A DNA stretch of 64,000 nt from assembly GCF_000177635.2 (NCBI RefSeq), contig NC_014836.1, positions 1 to 64,000 of the forward strand, given 5' to 3'. This DNA is from Desulfurispirillum indicum S5 (GTDB lineage Bacteria > Chrysiogenota > Chrysiogenetes > Chrysiogenales > Chrysiogenaceae). Position numbers and translations under genes: made by a program. A model generated the notes under the pieces. That model did no database searches, had not been told where the DNA came from, and worked only from the letters and a program-made list of their open reading frames with translations. Shown piece after piece: positions 44,593-51,052 of the stretch (position 1 is the stretch's first letter; each line of letters begins with the position of its first letter).

Positions 44593-45846
44593 TCAGAAGC
44601 GGTAGGTTACAGCGGTACCAACTTTCCAGGCATCATCTCCGGCGCCGAAATCATCATCGGCAATCAGATACCCACCACCGACAGTGAGAGTTACCCCTTC
44701 TGCCAGAGTGCAGTCAAAGTAGACATCGATTTCGTGGCCAAGCGCACGCGCACTGGAGTTGGCACGGAAGACATTATCCTGAGCTTCCTGGGCAAAGATA
44801 TAGTAGGCGGAAAGCTTATGCCTTGGGTTCAGATTATGCTCGGCACCAAGCTTCAGGTATTGGTAGTTCATGTAGTAGTCGCCACGGGTTCCGGTAGCAG
44901 CAGCAGATGAACCACCCATGGCGCTGCGGCCGTCGAAGCGTCCGCCAGTGATGATTTCGGAGAAGTTGTTATAACCACGCACGTTAATGAATTCGCCTAT
45001 CTTGCTGTCACCGTAGTGTGCCCCTTCCACGGTGTACGCGGTGGCACCGGAGCGATAAGTCCCTTTAAGGCGAACGGCAAGACCATTGCCATCACTGACG
45101 TCAGTGCCGGTGATATCGGCATCGTTATCCCAGCTGTTGGCAATCAGGGTTCCCTGCAGCCTTATGTCGCCAATATTTCCATCGGCCTCCACGCCTAGGT
45201 ACCAGCTTTCAAAGTCATTGGAGAAGCCCTCATTGCGCAATCCCAGCCCGGTAGGCTGTCCATTGAGATATCCCACAAAGGGGGAAACATTCCAGCCACC
45301 AGCCTGGGTGGAGTATTGCAGCTGATAGTAGTCAGCATCCTGCTTGTGGCTGGCAGGATCTCCTTCAGCCAGCTTTGTCCAGGCAAAATGCAGCCCATCA
45401 CCACTGTCCAGGGTGTAGTGCAGTTGCATCCCTGAAGCATCGTCTCCCTGGATAAAGCCATCACCCAGCCAGTAACCCTGCGCGCCCAAGGTAGCGTGCA
45501 GCTCGGTTCCGGGAACATGCAGGTCGAGGTAGAGGTGCTTGATCTCAATGGCGCCAGTTTCGTCTGCGCCTACCTTTCCAACCGCGTTATCCCCCCAAGT
45601 GCTGTCCATCTCTATGGCAAATACGGCTTTGGCGTGCTCATTCAAAGCTGCATTGGTCCATAAACGGTAACGTTGGTCCACTCCACGGGAGCTGTCATTC
45701 ACATTGTCGTTTCCATTCAGATTATCGTAGGCAAAACCCCTGACTTGCATAAAGCCATTGAAGTCAATATTCAGGCCTTCAGCTGCGGATACTGAAGTCA
45801 TTGCCAGGGCTGCGCAGGATGCCATGATCAGACGATACTTTTTCAT
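44593..45846 (-). CDS. Outer-membrane beta-barrel porin
   Basis: The 417-residue exported protein has a signal peptide (MASCAALAMTSVSA), many alternating beta-strand stretches and a C-terminal Phe (TAVTYRF) that marks insertion into the outer membrane. Long acidic loops (YDNLNGNDNVNDSS) suggest a general or cation-selective pore. The start at 45846 has a perfect AGGAGG site. It is convergent with the copper genes and of unclear relation to them. Confidence 0.9.
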   Translation of the reverse strand: MKKYRLIMASCAALAMTSVSAAEGLNIDFNGFMQVRGFAYDNLNGNDNVNDSSRGVDQRYRLWTNAALNEHAKAVFAIEMDSTWGDNAVGKVGADETGAIEIKHLYLDLHVPGTELHATLGAQGYWLGDGFIQGDDASGMQLHYTLDSGDGLHFAWTKLAEGDPASHKQDADYYQLQYSTQAGGWNVSPFVGYLNGQPTGLGLRNEGFSNDFESWYLGVEADGNIGDIRLQGTLIANSWDNDADITGTDVSDGNGLAVRLKGTYRSGATAYTVEGAHYGDSKIGEFINVRGYNNFSEIITGGRFDGRSAMGGSSAAATGTRGDYYMNYQYLKLGAEHNLNPRHKLSAYYIFAQEAQDNVFRANSSARALGHEIDVYFDCTLAEGVTLTVGGGYLIADDDFGAGDDAWKVGTAVTYRF

Positions 45847-46318
45847 CAAATCCTCCTTTAGATTCATAAATGGAACTGTAGTGTGCAATTTGAAATGCGG
45901 ATAGTGACTTGCCAATTAATTAACAGTCATAGGCTTTCTCCTTTTTGAAGCTGCAGTGATGTATCGTGGAATCTCCTAATGCTTATACGAAAATAAAAGA
46001 GCGCACGCAATATTAAATACCTTTTTTTAAAACATTTACAGGGAGTTTAATGCGTTTGAAATTTTTGGAAGTTCTTGGCACTGGACTTAATAAGTAAAAT
46101 AAATAAACATCGAATTACTCTTTTTGATTACTGAACGAGTTGAGATGTTCTCAGCGTTTATCCTGTTACTGGCATTTGTGGAACGCACTGCAAAATATAT
46201 ACACCCCAGTAAGCGGGGCTTACTGGGGTGTATGAGTATATATTAGTGTTTTTACTGAGAAAATGTCGTGTAGGGGATTTGTTGATTAGCGCTAACTAAT
46301 ACCGATGTGTTGAGTTAG
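45847..46318. other. Low-GC gene-free region with a 14-bp-stem hairpin
   Basis: This spacer of about 470 bp is AT-rich and contains no supported gene. A perfect 14-bp inverted repeat (ACACCCCAGTAAGC / GCTTACTGGGGTGT, 3-nt loop) at 46201-46231 probably terminates the leftward operon that ends at 46319. The porin promoter must lie near 45850-45960. Confidence 0.6.
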
Positions 46319-46903
46319 TTAGTACTCCCGGTCGAAAGATTCTGCTAATCTCGTGAAATGCATGGAGAGCTTGAATAGCAATAGATAGTGTCCGTATTGT
46401 GAAAGTGAAAAAAGCCTGCTTTGGTGAATTGGTGACGGAAGGCTAGCAGCATGGTTTGAAACAATTCGGTCAAAAAAAACTATTGACTCTATTAGCTCGC
46501 CATGAGGGGGGAGATAGAAAATTTGGCTAACAGCTTGGCGCTTAATTTCAGTAGTGTGTGTGGAAATTTTTTCGGAGCAAATCTTTGCATCCCTGAGCAT
46601 CGCTATATAATTTTCAAGAGGTATTAATGGGGTGTAAAGTACAAACGGAGGTAGGTATCTTCGATTTAATGCACTTATATCGCATGTATTTGAAAGAATT
46701 AACACTGGTGCATGCTTGATTTCGTTTTCCGGTAGAAAAATAACCGGAAGTTGTTTTATTCCATCGCCTTGAAAGCAGTTATCTTCATGTATGTTAGTGT
46801 ATAATCGATTATCAATATTGTCAGGAAACATTGATATGTCTTTAAATAGCTTCTCTCCAGTTGTAGGGCTTAGATATTTTGGCAAGTAGCACTTATAGTC
46901 CAT
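46319..46903 (-). CDS. Hypothetical protein, third gene of the TIGR04255 cassette
   Basis: The 194-residue protein shows no signal peptide or known fold. Recognisable stretches are APVLILSNTCDISALNRR near the middle and SRLFSLSQYGHYLLLFKLSM near the C-terminus, which look like conserved family blocks. It follows the 98-residue gene by 9 bp, so the three genes form one operon. Base composition is far more AT-rich than the surroundings, pointing to horizontal gain. No function can be assigned. Confidence 0.72.
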   Translation of the reverse strand: MDYKCYLPKYLSPTTGEKLFKDISMFPDNIDNRLYTNIHEDNCFQGDGIKQLPVIFLPENEIKHAPVLILSNTCDISALNRRYLPPFVLYTPLIPLENYIAMLRDAKICSEKISTHTTEIKRQAVSQIFYLPPHGELIESIVFFDRIVSNHAASLPSPIHQSRLFSLSQYGHYLLLFKLSMHFTRLAESFDREY

Positions 46904-46912
46904 AGGCCAATC

Positions 46913-47209
46913 CTATATCAATGACCAGTATTTCGCAGCTACTACACCTGCAATTTCTTCATCCAGTTCAACAATCGAGTTTTCCATTTTCTTGGTGAAA
47001 CTCATGATAATTTCATGAGGCATTGATGGTGGCTGCTGGGGGGAGCTTTCATGCAAAAGGAAAAATGATTGCTTGGCTCTGTCAAAAGGAACGCATTGTT
47101 TGGATAGTTTTACTGGTGAGTTAGGTATTGCACTAGCCTCTGTGAGTGAAGGTGTAGAGGTTGTCAATGTTGTAAATATTGCAGCAGTAACAAGTGCACT
47201 ATACCTCAT
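46913..47209 (-). CDS. Hypothetical 98-residue protein, second gene of the TIGR04255 cassette
   Basis: A small protein whose start ATG overlaps the stop of the upstream gene by 4 bp. The N-terminus is mildly hydrophobic (SALVTAAIFTTLTTST) and the C-terminus helical and acidic (MENSIVELDEEIAGVVAA). Size and position recall antitoxin or helper subunits, but no motif supports that. Confidence 0.6.
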   Translation of the reverse strand: MRYSALVTAAIFTTLTTSTPSLTEASAIPNSPVKLSKQCVPFDRAKQSFFLLHESSPQQPPSMPHEIIMSFTKKMENSIVELDEEIAGVVAAKYWSLI

Positions 47210-47943
47210 TGTTCACCTCCAGGTGCTGCGTTAAGCGACTCCAATAACTCATTTCCAATAAGTTCAAAAAACAATTGTTTTCCTTTTTTATGCGCTTCTT
47301 CTGTAAGTGATGAGAACTTGTTGAAAAATTCGCCTGAGTCCATTGACTTTAAAATAATGCAATCTATGTCAATTATCGATCCTAGTAAGTTTGAATCGCC
47401 AGAAAAAGCATTAACATTGCTGCCAATTTGCAAAATAATAGTATACTCACCGCTAATGAACTCAGTTCTGACACTAGTTGACTCATTGTCAATTTCTTTT
47501 TTAGCTATTTGCAGTTTTATATGCGCCTTATTAAGTATTTTTTCATTAAAGAAATTAATGTATCTGAGCCCTATTCTCTCAACACTATTAATTAAGTTGA
47601 TTTCCTTTATTTCCCCTAGTACATGGTTGATATGAGTTGACCAATCATTCCAGCCAAGATATGGCTTTGTGTTAATAAATGCAATTGATCTTGGACCTAG
47701 GTTGATCCTAAGTGGGTGTTTCTCAAAGGTATACCAGGCATGATAGCGTAAACTAGGGTCTGTTCTTCGAATTTCTTCTGGTATGTTAGTTATTGGTAGA
47801 GTTGTTGTGTTTGGGTAATGACGATTCAGTGTAGGGTAGACCAACCCATAGACAGCGTCGTCAGGAACATTTGCATTGAACTGTATTTCTAAAATTGACT
47901 CGATGATGGCATCGTTTTGAAGCTTCGAAGGTAGTGTACACAT
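47206..47943 (-). CDS. TIGR04255-like protein, first gene of an AT-rich three-gene cassette
   Basis: The 245-residue protein resembles the sporadically distributed TIGR04255 family. It shows the typical opening (LQNDAIIESILEIQFN), the central block PLRINLGPRSIAFINTKPY and VERIGLRYINFF. Family function is not established. The ATG at 47943 is chosen because the longer frame would overlap the rubrerythrin gene. The two following genes overlap or nearly touch it. The cassette is inserted just behind the lysine/rubrerythrin operon. Confidence 0.75.
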   Translation of the reverse strand: MCTLPSKLQNDAIIESILEIQFNANVPDDAVYGLVYPTLNRHYPNTTTLPITNIPEEIRRTDPSLRYHAWYTFEKHPLRINLGPRSIAFINTKPYLGWNDWSTHINHVLGEIKEINLINSVERIGLRYINFFNEKILNKAHIKLQIAKKEIDNESTSVRTEFISGEYTIILQIGSNVNAFSGDSNLLGSIIDIDCIILKSMDSGEFFNKFSSLTEEAHKKGKQLFFELIGNELLESLNAAPGGEQ

Positions 47944-47963
47944 GAGAATGACCTTTACTATGT

Positions 47964-48464
47964 TTATAGCTTCTGCAGCTGTTTCAGGCACCACTCCAGG
48001 CTTTTGATATGGCGCTTTTCATCGTCGGCGCAGGTGCGGAACCAGCTTTCCATCTGGGGGTTTTCGGCGGCGCGGGCGTGGGAGCTGCCTTCCAGTTTGA
48101 GTTTACGGCTTCCCTTTTTGCCTTCGATGAGTTTCTTGATCATTTCCATGATGTCGTTTTTATCGGTGGTGTCCTCGTCCCGCTGCACAAACCCGGCGGC
48201 GTGGCGTAGCTCTTCTTCGGCCAGTTTGCCCATGACGTCGGCGACCTGGGGGTAGCCCAGCTGTTGGGCCAGCAGACCATAGGCCATCAGGCGGGTGGCT
48301 TCCCAGGAGTCGCCGCTGATCTGGGTTTTGATGTACTGTTCCATATCCATGGTTTCACCGTTGAACTCCTCGAAGGTGTCTTCATAGGAGCAGTGGGGGC
48401 AGGTGGATGGCGATGGCTCACTGAAAGAGAGCATTCGGCATTTGTTGCAGCGGTACGTGGACAT
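47964..48464 (-). CDS. Rubrerythrin-like protein with N-terminal zinc ribbon
   Basis: The 166-residue protein starts with a two-CXXC ribbon (CNKCRM, CPHCSYED). The helical part carries Glu/His metal ligands (EEELRHAAGF, DDEKRHIKSLEWC), the ferritin-like di-iron pattern. Rubrerythrins reduce peroxide in anaerobes. The iron ligands look only partly typical, so activity is uncertain. It follows dapB by 16 bp at the end of the lysine operon. Confidence 0.82.
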   Translation of the reverse strand: MSTYRCNKCRMLSFSEPSPSTCPHCSYEDTFEEFNGETMDMEQYIKTQISGDSWEATRLMAYGLLAQQLGYPQVADVMGKLAEEELRHAAGFVQRDEDTTDKNDIMEMIKKLIEGKKGSRKLKLEGSSHARAAENPQMESWFRTCADDEKRHIKSLEWCLKQLQKL

Positions 48465-48479
48465 GGCGTGCTCCTGTTG

Positions 48480-49283
48480 TTATTTCAGGCCCAGAACATC
48501 AAACATACTGTAGAGGCCGGCGGGTTGATGGTGTACCCAGGTGGCGGCGCGTATGGCTCCGCTGGCAAAGGTGTCGCGGCTGTGGGCGCGGTGGGTGATT
48601 TCCACGCGCTCGCCGGGGCCACAGAAGAAGACGGTGTGGTCGCCGACGATATCGCCGCCGCGGATGGTCTGGATGCCGATCTCCTTTTTGGTGCGTTCAC
48701 CGATCATGCCTTCTCGATGATACACGGCGTCGGTGGCCAGATCCCGCTTGAGGGTCTGAGCCAGTACCTGGGCCATTTTCATGGCGGTGCCGCTGGGGGC
48801 GTCTTTTTTGCGGTTGTGGTGGGCTTCCACCACTTCCACGTCGTAGTCGTCGCCAAAGATAGTGGCGGCCATTTCCAGCAGTTTCAGGGTCACGTTCACC
48901 CCGGTGCTCATGTTGGGGGCAAAGACGATGGGGATATGCTGAGCGGCGGCATTGATGGCTGCCTGGCCTTCGGCGCTGAGTCCGGTGGTGCCGATGACGA
49001 GGGGGATGCCGATTTTGGCCAGTCGGGGGGCGTTGCCGGCGGTGGCGTCGGCGTGGGTGAAGTCGATGACCACGTCAGCTTCGCTAAGGGCGGCTTCCAG
49101 GTCGTCGGTGATAACGATGCCATTGGTGCCGAATCCGGCGATTTCGCCGCTGTCCTTGCCCAGGTAGGGTGATGTGGGGGCGTCGATGGCGGCGGCGAGC
49201 TGGCAGTGGTCACTTTTTTCCACCAGGTTGAGTATGGTGGTTCCCATGCGCCCGGTAACGCCCATGATGGCTATTTTCAGCAT
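48480..49283 (-). CDS. dapB: 4-hydroxy-tetrahydrodipicolinate reductase
   Basis: The 267-residue protein has the NAD(P)-binding start KIAIMGVTGRMG, the family signature EAHHNRKKDAPSGTA (catalytic His and Lys) and the C-terminal FASGAIRAA. It performs the second committed step of the diaminopimelate/lysine pathway. It lies 14 bp after dapA. Confidence 0.97.
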   Translation of the reverse strand: MLKIAIMGVTGRMGTTILNLVEKSDHCQLAAAIDAPTSPYLGKDSGEIAGFGTNGIVITDDLEAALSEADVVIDFTHADATAGNAPRLAKIGIPLVIGTTGLSAEGQAAINAAAQHIPIVFAPNMSTGVNVTLKLLEMAATIFGDDYDVEVVEAHHNRKKDAPSGTAMKMAQVLAQTLKRDLATDAVYHREGMIGERTKKEIGIQTIRGGDIVGDHTVFFCGPGERVEITHRAHSRDTFASGAIRAATWVHHQPAGLYSMFDVLGLK

Positions 49284-49297
49284 ATGTCTCTCCTGTG

Positions 49298-50179
49298 TTA
49301 TGCGCGGATCAGTTCCAGGCGCGCCAGCTCTTTGGCGAGGATCTCCCGGTTGCCTGGGCTGAGGTTGGTCAGGGGCAGGCGAAATTCATCGGCACACTTA
49401 CCCATCATGGCAACGGCGGTTTTGACGGGAATGGGATTGGCTTCCAGGTAGAGCAGGCGATTGAGGTGGAAGTAGCGGTCGTGGATTTCGCAGGCGGCGG
49501 CAAAGTCGCCCGCGAGGGCGAGGGCGGCCATCTGGCTCCATGGGCCGGGGATGATGTTGGATATGACGGATATGACGCCTCGTCCTCCCAGGGCCATCTG
49601 CCCAAGGGCGGTGAGGTCGTCGCCGGAGAGCAGGGTGATTTTGTCGCCACACAGGCGGCGGATCTCCGAGGCGACGATCATGCTGGAGGTGGCATCCTTG
49701 ATGGCGACGATGTTGTCCAGTTCGGCGAGGCGGGCGACCGTTTCGGGCAGCAGGTCGACTCCGCAGCGTCCGGGGACGTTGTAGAGGACGATGGGAATGC
49801 CAATGCGATCCAGCTCACGGTAGTGCTGGTAGAGGCCTTCCTGGCTGGGCTTGTTGTAGTATGGCGTTACGGAGAGGGCGGCGTCGGCACCATCCTTGAG
49901 GGCGTGTTCGGTCAGGCTGATGGCTTCGGCGGTGGAGTTTGAGCCGGTTCCGGCGATGACGGGAACTCTTCCGGCTACTTGCTCAATGCAGACGCGGATT
50001 ACGCGCTGGTGTTCCTCGTGGGAGAGGGTGGTGCTTTCTCCGGTGGTTCCGCAGGGAACGATGCCGCTGATGCCGTTTTCAATCTGATTTTCGATCAGCT
50101 GCCGGTACGCGTCTTCATCAAACTTGCCGTTTCTGAAGGGGGTGATGATGGCAACGATGGCTCCTTGTAACTGCTGCAT
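49298..50179 (-). CDS. dapA: 4-hydroxy-tetrahydrodipicolinate synthase
   Basis: The 293-residue TIM-barrel enzyme condenses pyruvate with aspartate semialdehyde. It shows PCGTTGEST, the catalytic Tyr in YNVPGRCGVD and the Schiff-base Lys in VAIKDATSS. It begins 3 bp after dapF in the lysA-dapF-dapA-dapB operon. Confidence 0.98.
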   Translation of the reverse strand: MQQLQGAIVAIITPFRNGKFDEDAYRQLIENQIENGISGIVPCGTTGESTTLSHEEHQRVIRVCIEQVAGRVPVIAGTGSNSTAEAISLTEHALKDGADAALSVTPYYNKPSQEGLYQHYRELDRIGIPIVLYNVPGRCGVDLLPETVARLAELDNIVAIKDATSSMIVASEIRRLCGDKITLLSGDDLTALGQMALGGRGVISVISNIIPGPWSQMAALALAGDFAAACEIHDRYFHLNRLLYLEANPIPVKTAVAMMGKCADEFRLPLTNLSPGNREILAKELARLELIRA

Positions 50180-50182
50180 ACA

Positions 50183-51052
50183 CTATACCTCTTTTTCCGT
50201 AAGCTGGAGTTTGTTGTTTATCAGGTCTGGAGTGATGGTCCCGGTGAAAAGAATGTGGGCATCGCCGGTCATGGTAACGGAATTCAGCGCTCTGTCAAAG
50301 GAAATAAACAGTTCGCCGCCGTTGGTGATAACGTGAACTTCCGTTGAAACTTCGCTGTCGTCAAGGCAGGCGACGATGGCGGCGGCGACGCTGCCGGTTC
50401 CGCAGGAGAGGGTCTCACCTTCCACGCCCCGCTCGTAGGTGCGCACGCGGATGGTATCCGGTGCTACCTTCTCGTAGATGTTGACGTTGGTTCCGCTGGC
50501 GTACATTTCGTGGAAGCGGATTTCCGGGGCCATGTTCATGAGGTCGAAGCTTTCAATATCCGACACCTGCAGCACGGCATGGGGAACGCCGGTATTGATG
50601 CTGGAGAGCAGGTATTCAGTCTTGATGGTTTTGATGGTGTACTTGCTGCGGTGATCGTGGGGTTTGGTGAGTTGAACGCCGATGAGCCGCTGCTCATCCA
50701 GGCGGATTCCGATCATGCCGGCTTCGGTGTGCAGGTTAAAGCTGTTTTCGTGCACGATGCCCTGGGAGAATATATACCGTGCTGCGCAGCGGGCGCCATT
50801 GCCGCACATTTCGGCCCGGGAGCCATCGGCGTTGTAGAAGTGCCACTGGATGTCGGTGGGGGCGTTCTGCTGGATAAAGATCACTCCGTCGGCACCGATG
50901 CCGAAGTGGCGATGGCACATGCGGGGAATGATCTCCTGGATGGAGCGGTAGTTGATGGTGCGGGCCAGGTCGTTGATGACAATGAAGTCATTGCCGGTGC
51001 CGCTGATTTTGGTGAATGAGCCGTTCCAGCCAGCATGGGAAAAAGTATTCAC
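50183..51052 (-). CDS. dapF: Diaminopimelate epimerase
   Basis: The 289-residue enzyme converts LL- to meso-diaminopimelate using two Cys residues, seen in CGNGARCAARY and LSCGTGSVAAA. The N-terminus ISGTGNDFIVINDL is typical. Its start overlaps the lysA stop by 4 bp. Confidence 0.98.
   Translation of the reverse strand: MNTFSHAGWNGSFTKISGTGNDFIVINDLARTINYRSIQEIIPRMCHRHFGIGADGVIFIQQNAPTDIQWHFYNADGSRAEMCGNGARCAARYIFSQGIVHENSFNLHTEAGMIGIRLDEQRLIGVQLTKPHDHRSKYTIKTIKTEYLLSSINTGVPHAVLQVSDIESFDLMNMAPEIRFHEMYASGTNVNIYEKVAPDTIRVRTYERGVEGETLSCGTGSVAAAIVACLDDSEVSTEVHVITNGGELFISFDRALNSVTMTGDAHILFTGTITPDLINNKLQLTEKEV

Follow-up and report, generated by a model that had tools for sequence, protein, structure and literature searches.

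We asked what is encoded by three tightly packed, AT-rich genes in the chromosome of Desulfurispirillum indicum S5 (NC_014836.1), which an initial annotation made from the DNA letters had put forward as an undescribed defence or toxin-antitoxin (TA) module, and what its first gene, a member of the family TIGR04255, might contribute to such a module. The window referred to below is the whole stretch that was analysed, the first 64,000 nucleotides of the contig, and the three genes are called A, B and C in the order in which they are transcribed.

An AT-rich three-gene cassette and its products

The open reading frame coordinates agree with the tight coupling that had been described, with a 4-bp overlap between A and B and a 9-bp gap between B and C (Table 1). 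The GC content of the cassette is 37.8%, whereas the window as a whole has 55.9% and the 5-kb flanks have 54.7% and 58.2%, so that the low GC content reported relative to the flanks is borne out; AT content was also higher than in the surroundings in all eight loci at which it was measured. A hairpin with a near-perfect stem, followed on the minus strand by a T-rich tail, lies 3' of C, where the annotation had placed a terminator, and it can act as one: terminator-like sites often arise by chance, but the length of this stem is exceptional. The interval first assigned to the unit, 46201-47943, does contain the genes, while its lower boundary did not hold, since C reaches to 46319 and the hairpin begins at 46198.

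Table 1. Features of the cassette and their positions in the window
Feature	Position	Strand	Start and length	Description
Gene A	47206-47943	minus	ATG at 47943, 245 aa	TIGR04255 family protein
Gene B	46913-47209	minus	98 aa	putative antitoxin
Gene C	46319-46903	minus	194 aa	putative toxin
Inverted repeat	46198-46234	terminator-like on both strands	16-17 bp	end of the A-B-C unit

Upstream of A, at a spacing of 20 bp and also on the minus strand, is a rubrerythrin-like gene that ends a row in the order dapF-dapA-dapB-rubrerythrin (window 47943-51052, all minus strand; the dap names come from reading the translations). Given this close spacing behind the row, the cassette may be transcribed by read-through from it and may have no promoter of its own. 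Downstream, the cassette adjoins a porin-like gene (window 44593-45915) that scores below threshold against NCBIfam DESULF_POR1 (82.7 bits; cut-off 250). No tRNA genes were found in the 64-kb window, so a tRNA-linked integration site is absent.

Gene A is a clear member of TIGR04255, as had been suggested, matching the NCBIfam model over positions 1-252 of 252 (E 1.4e-41; 143 bits, cut-off 30). That model covers A only, and the family is sporadic and has no function named; A also matches PHROG 5464 (E 2e-34), for which no function is assigned. The AlphaFold2 model (pLDDT 92) consists of an antiparallel sheet and a long C-terminal helix, and its fold matches are at background level, with no clear relative among solved structures; sequence comparison with solved structures likewise gave chance-level matches only. 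Candidate relationships to TATA-binding protein (TBP), AdoMetDC or arginine kinase were rejected, as their TM-scores of about 0.3 or Z of about 8 are background. Homology to SecB was rejected as well: aligned to SecB relatives found in the same phylum, A gave an hhalign E of 0.52, and TIGR04255 was its only NCBIfam assignment; SecB was absent from the best 50 fold matches listed for A, which leaves room for a SecB-like fold. A is acidic (pI 5.5; median 5.6 in 101 members), with no known DNA-binding domain in Pfam and no ribbon-helix-helix or helix-turn-helix (HTH) domain in Pfam or NCBIfam. Neither A, B nor C matched any family in PADLOC-DB 2.0.0 at E up to 1.

The model of C (AlphaFold2, 41-sequence alignment, pLDDT 90) matches Staphylococcus aureus MazF with a Foldseek E of 1.8e-4 and a probability of 1.00, and VIA-align gave a Z of 11.4 (rmsd 3.0 over 111 residues), where 7-8 is the typical background according to the tool. 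MazF, Kid and CcdB structures occupy the top of both fold lists throughout, and residues 41-187 of C are thus predicted to form a MazF/PemK/CcdB-like fold, an SH3-like barrel. Sequence comparison found no relative of C among solved structures and no Pfam or NCBIfam family for it; PHROG 4575, which it matches at E 1e-36, has no function assigned. Scattered weak family matches were obtained with 28 C homologues, PemK among none of them, and C was rejected as a PemK protein by sequence (hhalign E 0.057), so that a MazF-like RNase activity is not to be assumed. Its signature is QGD...SNTCD. SNTCD is found at residues 71-75, as annotated, and SRLFSLSQ, described as a C-terminal block, at residues 164-171, near the C-terminus rather than at it. 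Across 41 homologues the invariant residues are P8, F26, Q45, G46, D47, N72, T73, C74, D75, L167, Y173 and R185. Taken with these residues, the predicted fold marks C as a toxin-fold protein with a likely active or binding site of its own.

B begins with a moderately hydrophobic N-terminal segment, continues with a linker of variable sequence and closes with a C-terminal peptide that is conserved, as is the position of the gene, across 27 loci; the peptide ends in FWDLI in most relatives and in YWSLI in the B of the window. Almost all B proteins of this type have the hydrophobic segment (residues 6-22 in the B of the window), and its hydrophobicity is borderline (mean KD 0.9-2.0). No match was found for B in Pfam, NCBIfam or PADLOC, and no DNA-binding domain was recognisable. 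The median pI of the family is 4.3, while the B of the window, at 6.1, is not strongly acidic. MazE-like antitoxins are small and acidic, are encoded upstream of a MazF-fold protein and have a conserved C-terminus, and the tail of MazE binds MazF; by analogy, we infer that B may be a MazE-like antitoxin.

Distribution of the cassette and its mobile positions

With C as the sole query, 84,980 species genomes were scanned and yielded 25 loci, in Bacteroidota, Ignavibacteriae, Desulfobacteraceae, Fibrobacter, Gammaproteobacteria and one metagenome-assembled genome (Candidatus Pelethosoma). A B-sized open reading frame lies directly 5' of C in all 25, and a TIGR04255-like gene lies upstream in 24 of them, counting one broken copy of A. 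In an independent scan of IMG/VR viral contigs with C, 18 loci were found, and A and B were then sought with HMMs built without those loci: B was present in 18 of 18 and A in 17 of 18, with all three genes in 17 of 18. Recurrent linkage of the three genes, which had been named as the check on the proposal, is thus seen in both data sets. Viral-contig scans with the A protein and with PemK gave nothing usable. The cassette is carried by the Pseudomonas phages VW-6S, Dobby and one more, as well as by a Phocaeicola plasmid, and an A-B-C order common to several phyla and to phages is more than chance would give.

Two kinds of departure from the standard arrangement were observed. At a Desulfobacteraceae locus (L027:6973-8423) A is broken and C is shortened, indicating that the cassette can decay. 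At two further loci (L044:9049-9678 and L031:6829-7560) B and C are intact and the A slot holds a protein of similar size with no TIGR04255 profile match, which may be an A that has diverged far or a protein that has taken its place.

Vertical inheritance in close relatives would have spoken against the proposal, and none was apparent: among 50 other genomes from the phylum not one contained TIGR04255, and C was missing from all 10 searched for it. A member of the same family (L055) keeps the dapA-dapB-rubrerythrin row and then has an unrelated gene in place of the cassette. Together, the absence from relatives in the phylum and the dap row without a cassette indicate that the cassette in the window is most likely a foreign insertion.

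In the P2-like phage Dobby the cassette adjoins the portal gene. In P2-like phages, anti-phage genes are carried in the cos-proximal stretch that separates the replication genes from the portal gene (PMC9122126), and the Dobby cassette occupies this hotspot. In other prophages the cassette adjoins the integrase (L037, L040), terminase genes (L038, L039, L041, L042, L052) or tail genes, including a tape-measure gene (L047, L050), all of which are classic sites for accessory genes. The Dobby cassette has no DNA-level match in E. coli genomes, so no ready E. coli homologue is at hand. Around the chromosomal copies, 89 neighbouring proteins from 20 loci were mostly housekeeping proteins, with a single type III restriction-modification system and a single DrmB as the defence-type neighbours; an association of these copies with defence islands is therefore unsupported.

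TIGR04255 and its exchanged partners

A survey of about 900 genomes found TIGR04255 in 16/132, 16/296, 11/77 and 30/398 genomes of individual groups, corresponding to 5-14% in several of them. At 57 of 72 loci A is followed by two genes on the same strand, all within 60 bp, and the commonest A-B junction is again a 4-bp overlap. Throughout the survey A keeps the first place in the operon, and the B/C pairs that come after it are many and unrelated. MazF-like proteins in the C slot include the SNTCD kind of the window, SQSCD and SPCCS kinds and a longer SQTCN group; those with a GD...SQSCD signature are related to the C of the window (hhalign E 7e-8). The other kinds are canonical PemK, PIN, two kinds of HEPN-like protein and HicA-like. 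The PIN assignment is firm (Pfam 1.3e-14) and PemK has relatives annotated as PemK/MazF (E 8e-7), while the HEPN matches are weak (Pfam 0.064 and 0.0095; PADLOC 0.0036) and HicA-like was assigned by eye, its B having a weak antitoxin match (0.0011).

Operons with these toxin-type C slots (HEPN-like, PIN, HicA-like or PemK) behind TIGR04255 were seen at L003, L059, L060, L061, L063, L066, L068, L070, L071, L075, L083, L086-L088, L099, L102, L114 and L130. Nameless C-slot families of about 131, 155, 165, 171 and 220 aa were also found. Behind TIGR04255, proteins with no family match were seen of about 131 aa (L005, L084, L091, L109, L119, L123), of about 155 aa (L104, L108, L118, L121, L126) and of 214-233 aa (L110, L111), and these three groups are candidates for new toxins. 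In a Campylobacter phage (L142:2384-3967), a diverged TIGR04255-like gene near a repressor gene is followed by two tightly packed nameless genes.

Particular B clusters go with particular C clusters (PemK 4/4, HicA-like 3/3, HEPN 7/8). When 101 A proteins were placed in a tree by a quick method, the partner classes required 28 changes, where the least possible number is 14 and the mean after shuffling is 61; a value between these two indicates that a pair stays with its A for a while and has been exchanged repeatedly. The C class of the window alone accounts for five changes, at least four of them on well-supported branches.

PemK-type B proteins of TIGR04255 operons have the C-terminal end FADDWDYPGMEAYDEL. 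The antitoxin of a two-gene PemK system from a Planktothrix plasmid, which lacks a neighbouring TIGR04255 gene, has the similar end FAEWNDPEEDIYNDV, and the front parts of the two appear unrelated in this one comparison by eye. A kept tail and a swapped front are what one would predict for antitoxins that turn their tail to the toxin and their front to A. We tentatively suggest, at odds just short of even, that TIGR04255 is a constant protein with no kinship to known chaperones that acts as the shared sensor or chaperone of tripartite TA defence modules, a large combinatorial superfamily in which more than ten unrelated pairs have docked onto it repeatedly; several of these would, as part of the same suggestion, be new toxin families, namely the QGD/SNTCD MazF-like proteins and the C-slot families of ~131, ~155 and ~220 aa.

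Models of cassette function

In toxin-antitoxin-chaperone (TAC) systems, a SecB-like chaperone protects the antitoxin; in CmdTAC, a phage capsid protein draws the chaperone off, which leads to degradation of the antitoxin and sets the toxin free (PMC5105189, PMC11618068). Like the TAC systems HigBA-SecB of Mycobacterium tuberculosis and CmdTAC of E. coli, the cassette family is phage-linked and has three adjacent, co-transcribed genes, with one constant third protein, variable toxin families and a small antitoxin-like protein whose type follows that of the toxin. Unlike in those systems, the third protein is a TIGR04255 member encoded first in the operon and has no detectable relation to SecB, and the C-terminal tail of B is the likely toxin-binding part, whereas the tail of TAC antitoxins binds the chaperone (PMC5105189). 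Since A is not SecB by sequence and its fold matches are only background, we do not file the cassette as a TAC member.

The best explanation, to which we assign a probability of roughly 0.6, is that A-B-C is a tripartite TA module that works in the manner of TAC systems and whose third component cannot be recognised as SecB. C would be the toxin, with a MazF/CcdB fold and its own conserved QGD/SNTCD site, and B the antitoxin, whose conserved C-terminal peptide would bind C much as MazE's tail binds MazF and whose remaining part would depend on A. By holding or folding B, A would keep B stable and C silent. Titration or alteration of A, for which a phage protein produced in the infected cell is the most plausible cause, would lead to the loss of B, and C would then halt growth or phage production (abortive infection). 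The cassette is probably a tripartite TA module, a reading that agrees with the initial annotation and is strengthened by the predicted fold of C, the toxin-type partners of TIGR04255 and the phage hotspot positions. Weighing against it are the lack of a SecB relation or clear fold match for A, the lack of a sequence relation between C and PemK, the pI of the B in the window, the housekeeping surroundings of most chromosomal copies and the weak or by-eye nature of the HEPN and HicA assignments. Whether phage defence is its main benefit is an even call, and that A acts as a chaperone, stabiliser or sensor of B, rather than in another role, is a tentative proposal with the odds slightly against it.

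Omega, the product of the first gene of the omega-epsilon-zeta operon, is a ribbon-helix-helix repressor, and A could by the same token be a transcriptional repressor placed before an antitoxin, B, and a toxin, C. As in omega-epsilon-zeta and other three-component TA systems, the third gene lies upstream of the antitoxin and toxin genes; B itself has no recognisable DNA-binding domain, and A shows a weak two-lobe resemblance to TBP. However, those TBP matches have TM-scores near 0.3 and an rmsd of about 8-12 A, and A, unlike omega, is acidic and lacks a recognised DNA-binding domain. Some B proteins (L112, L122), moreover, seem by eye to carry an HTH and still have A, and we consider a repressor role improbable.

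A second alternative dispenses with a TA relationship: A would sense the phage, B would anchor a direct defence complex in the membrane through its N-terminal segment, and C would be an effector that stays inactive until assembled or triggered. Such a complex fits the near-universal presence of that segment in this type of B and the prophage and hotspot positions, but the segment is only borderline hydrophobic, B proteins of other TIGR04255 operons have no obvious one, and the PIN and PemK partners are known TA families; this account, too, we regard as improbable. The cassette might instead be a selfish addiction module of phages, plasmids and mobile DNA that has no defence role and retains its element by killing after loss, in keeping with its occurrence on a plasmid and in prophages and with lone copies among housekeeping genes, as in the window. 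The P2 anti-phage hotspot (PMC9122126) and the need for a third protein favour sensing instead, and pure addiction seems unlikely to us, although addiction and defence functions are not mutually exclusive.

Within the preferred TA reading, the closest two-gene comparison is with MazEF, PemIK (Kid-Kis) and CcdAB, whose toxins share the predicted fold of C and whose antitoxin genes resemble B, which is small, upstream, acidic in most relatives and ends in a conserved peptide. C differs from these toxins in having no sequence relation to PemK, invariant QGD/SNTCD residues of its own and about 40 extra N-terminal residues, and the cassette differs in that a third gene is nearly always present.

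In the open-access literature searched, no paper names TIGR04255 or PHROGs 5464 and 4575, and none links TIGR04255 with B/C pairs. Within that open-access literature, and with no PADLOC match, the cassette stands as the candidate undescribed system that had been proposed, although it may have been described elsewhere. Collectively, these modules are widespread, phage-borne, TA-like and apparently undescribed, with A held constant and the antitoxin/toxin pair swapped, and A may be the missing key to how they work. A function-less, scattered family thereby gains a testable role from its place before swapped TA-like pairs, and each TIGR04255 gene becomes a signpost for an antitoxin and a toxin close by, nameless toxin candidates included. 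If A is a sensor that frees the toxin on infection, it would represent a second, non-SecB way for TA modules to detect phages.
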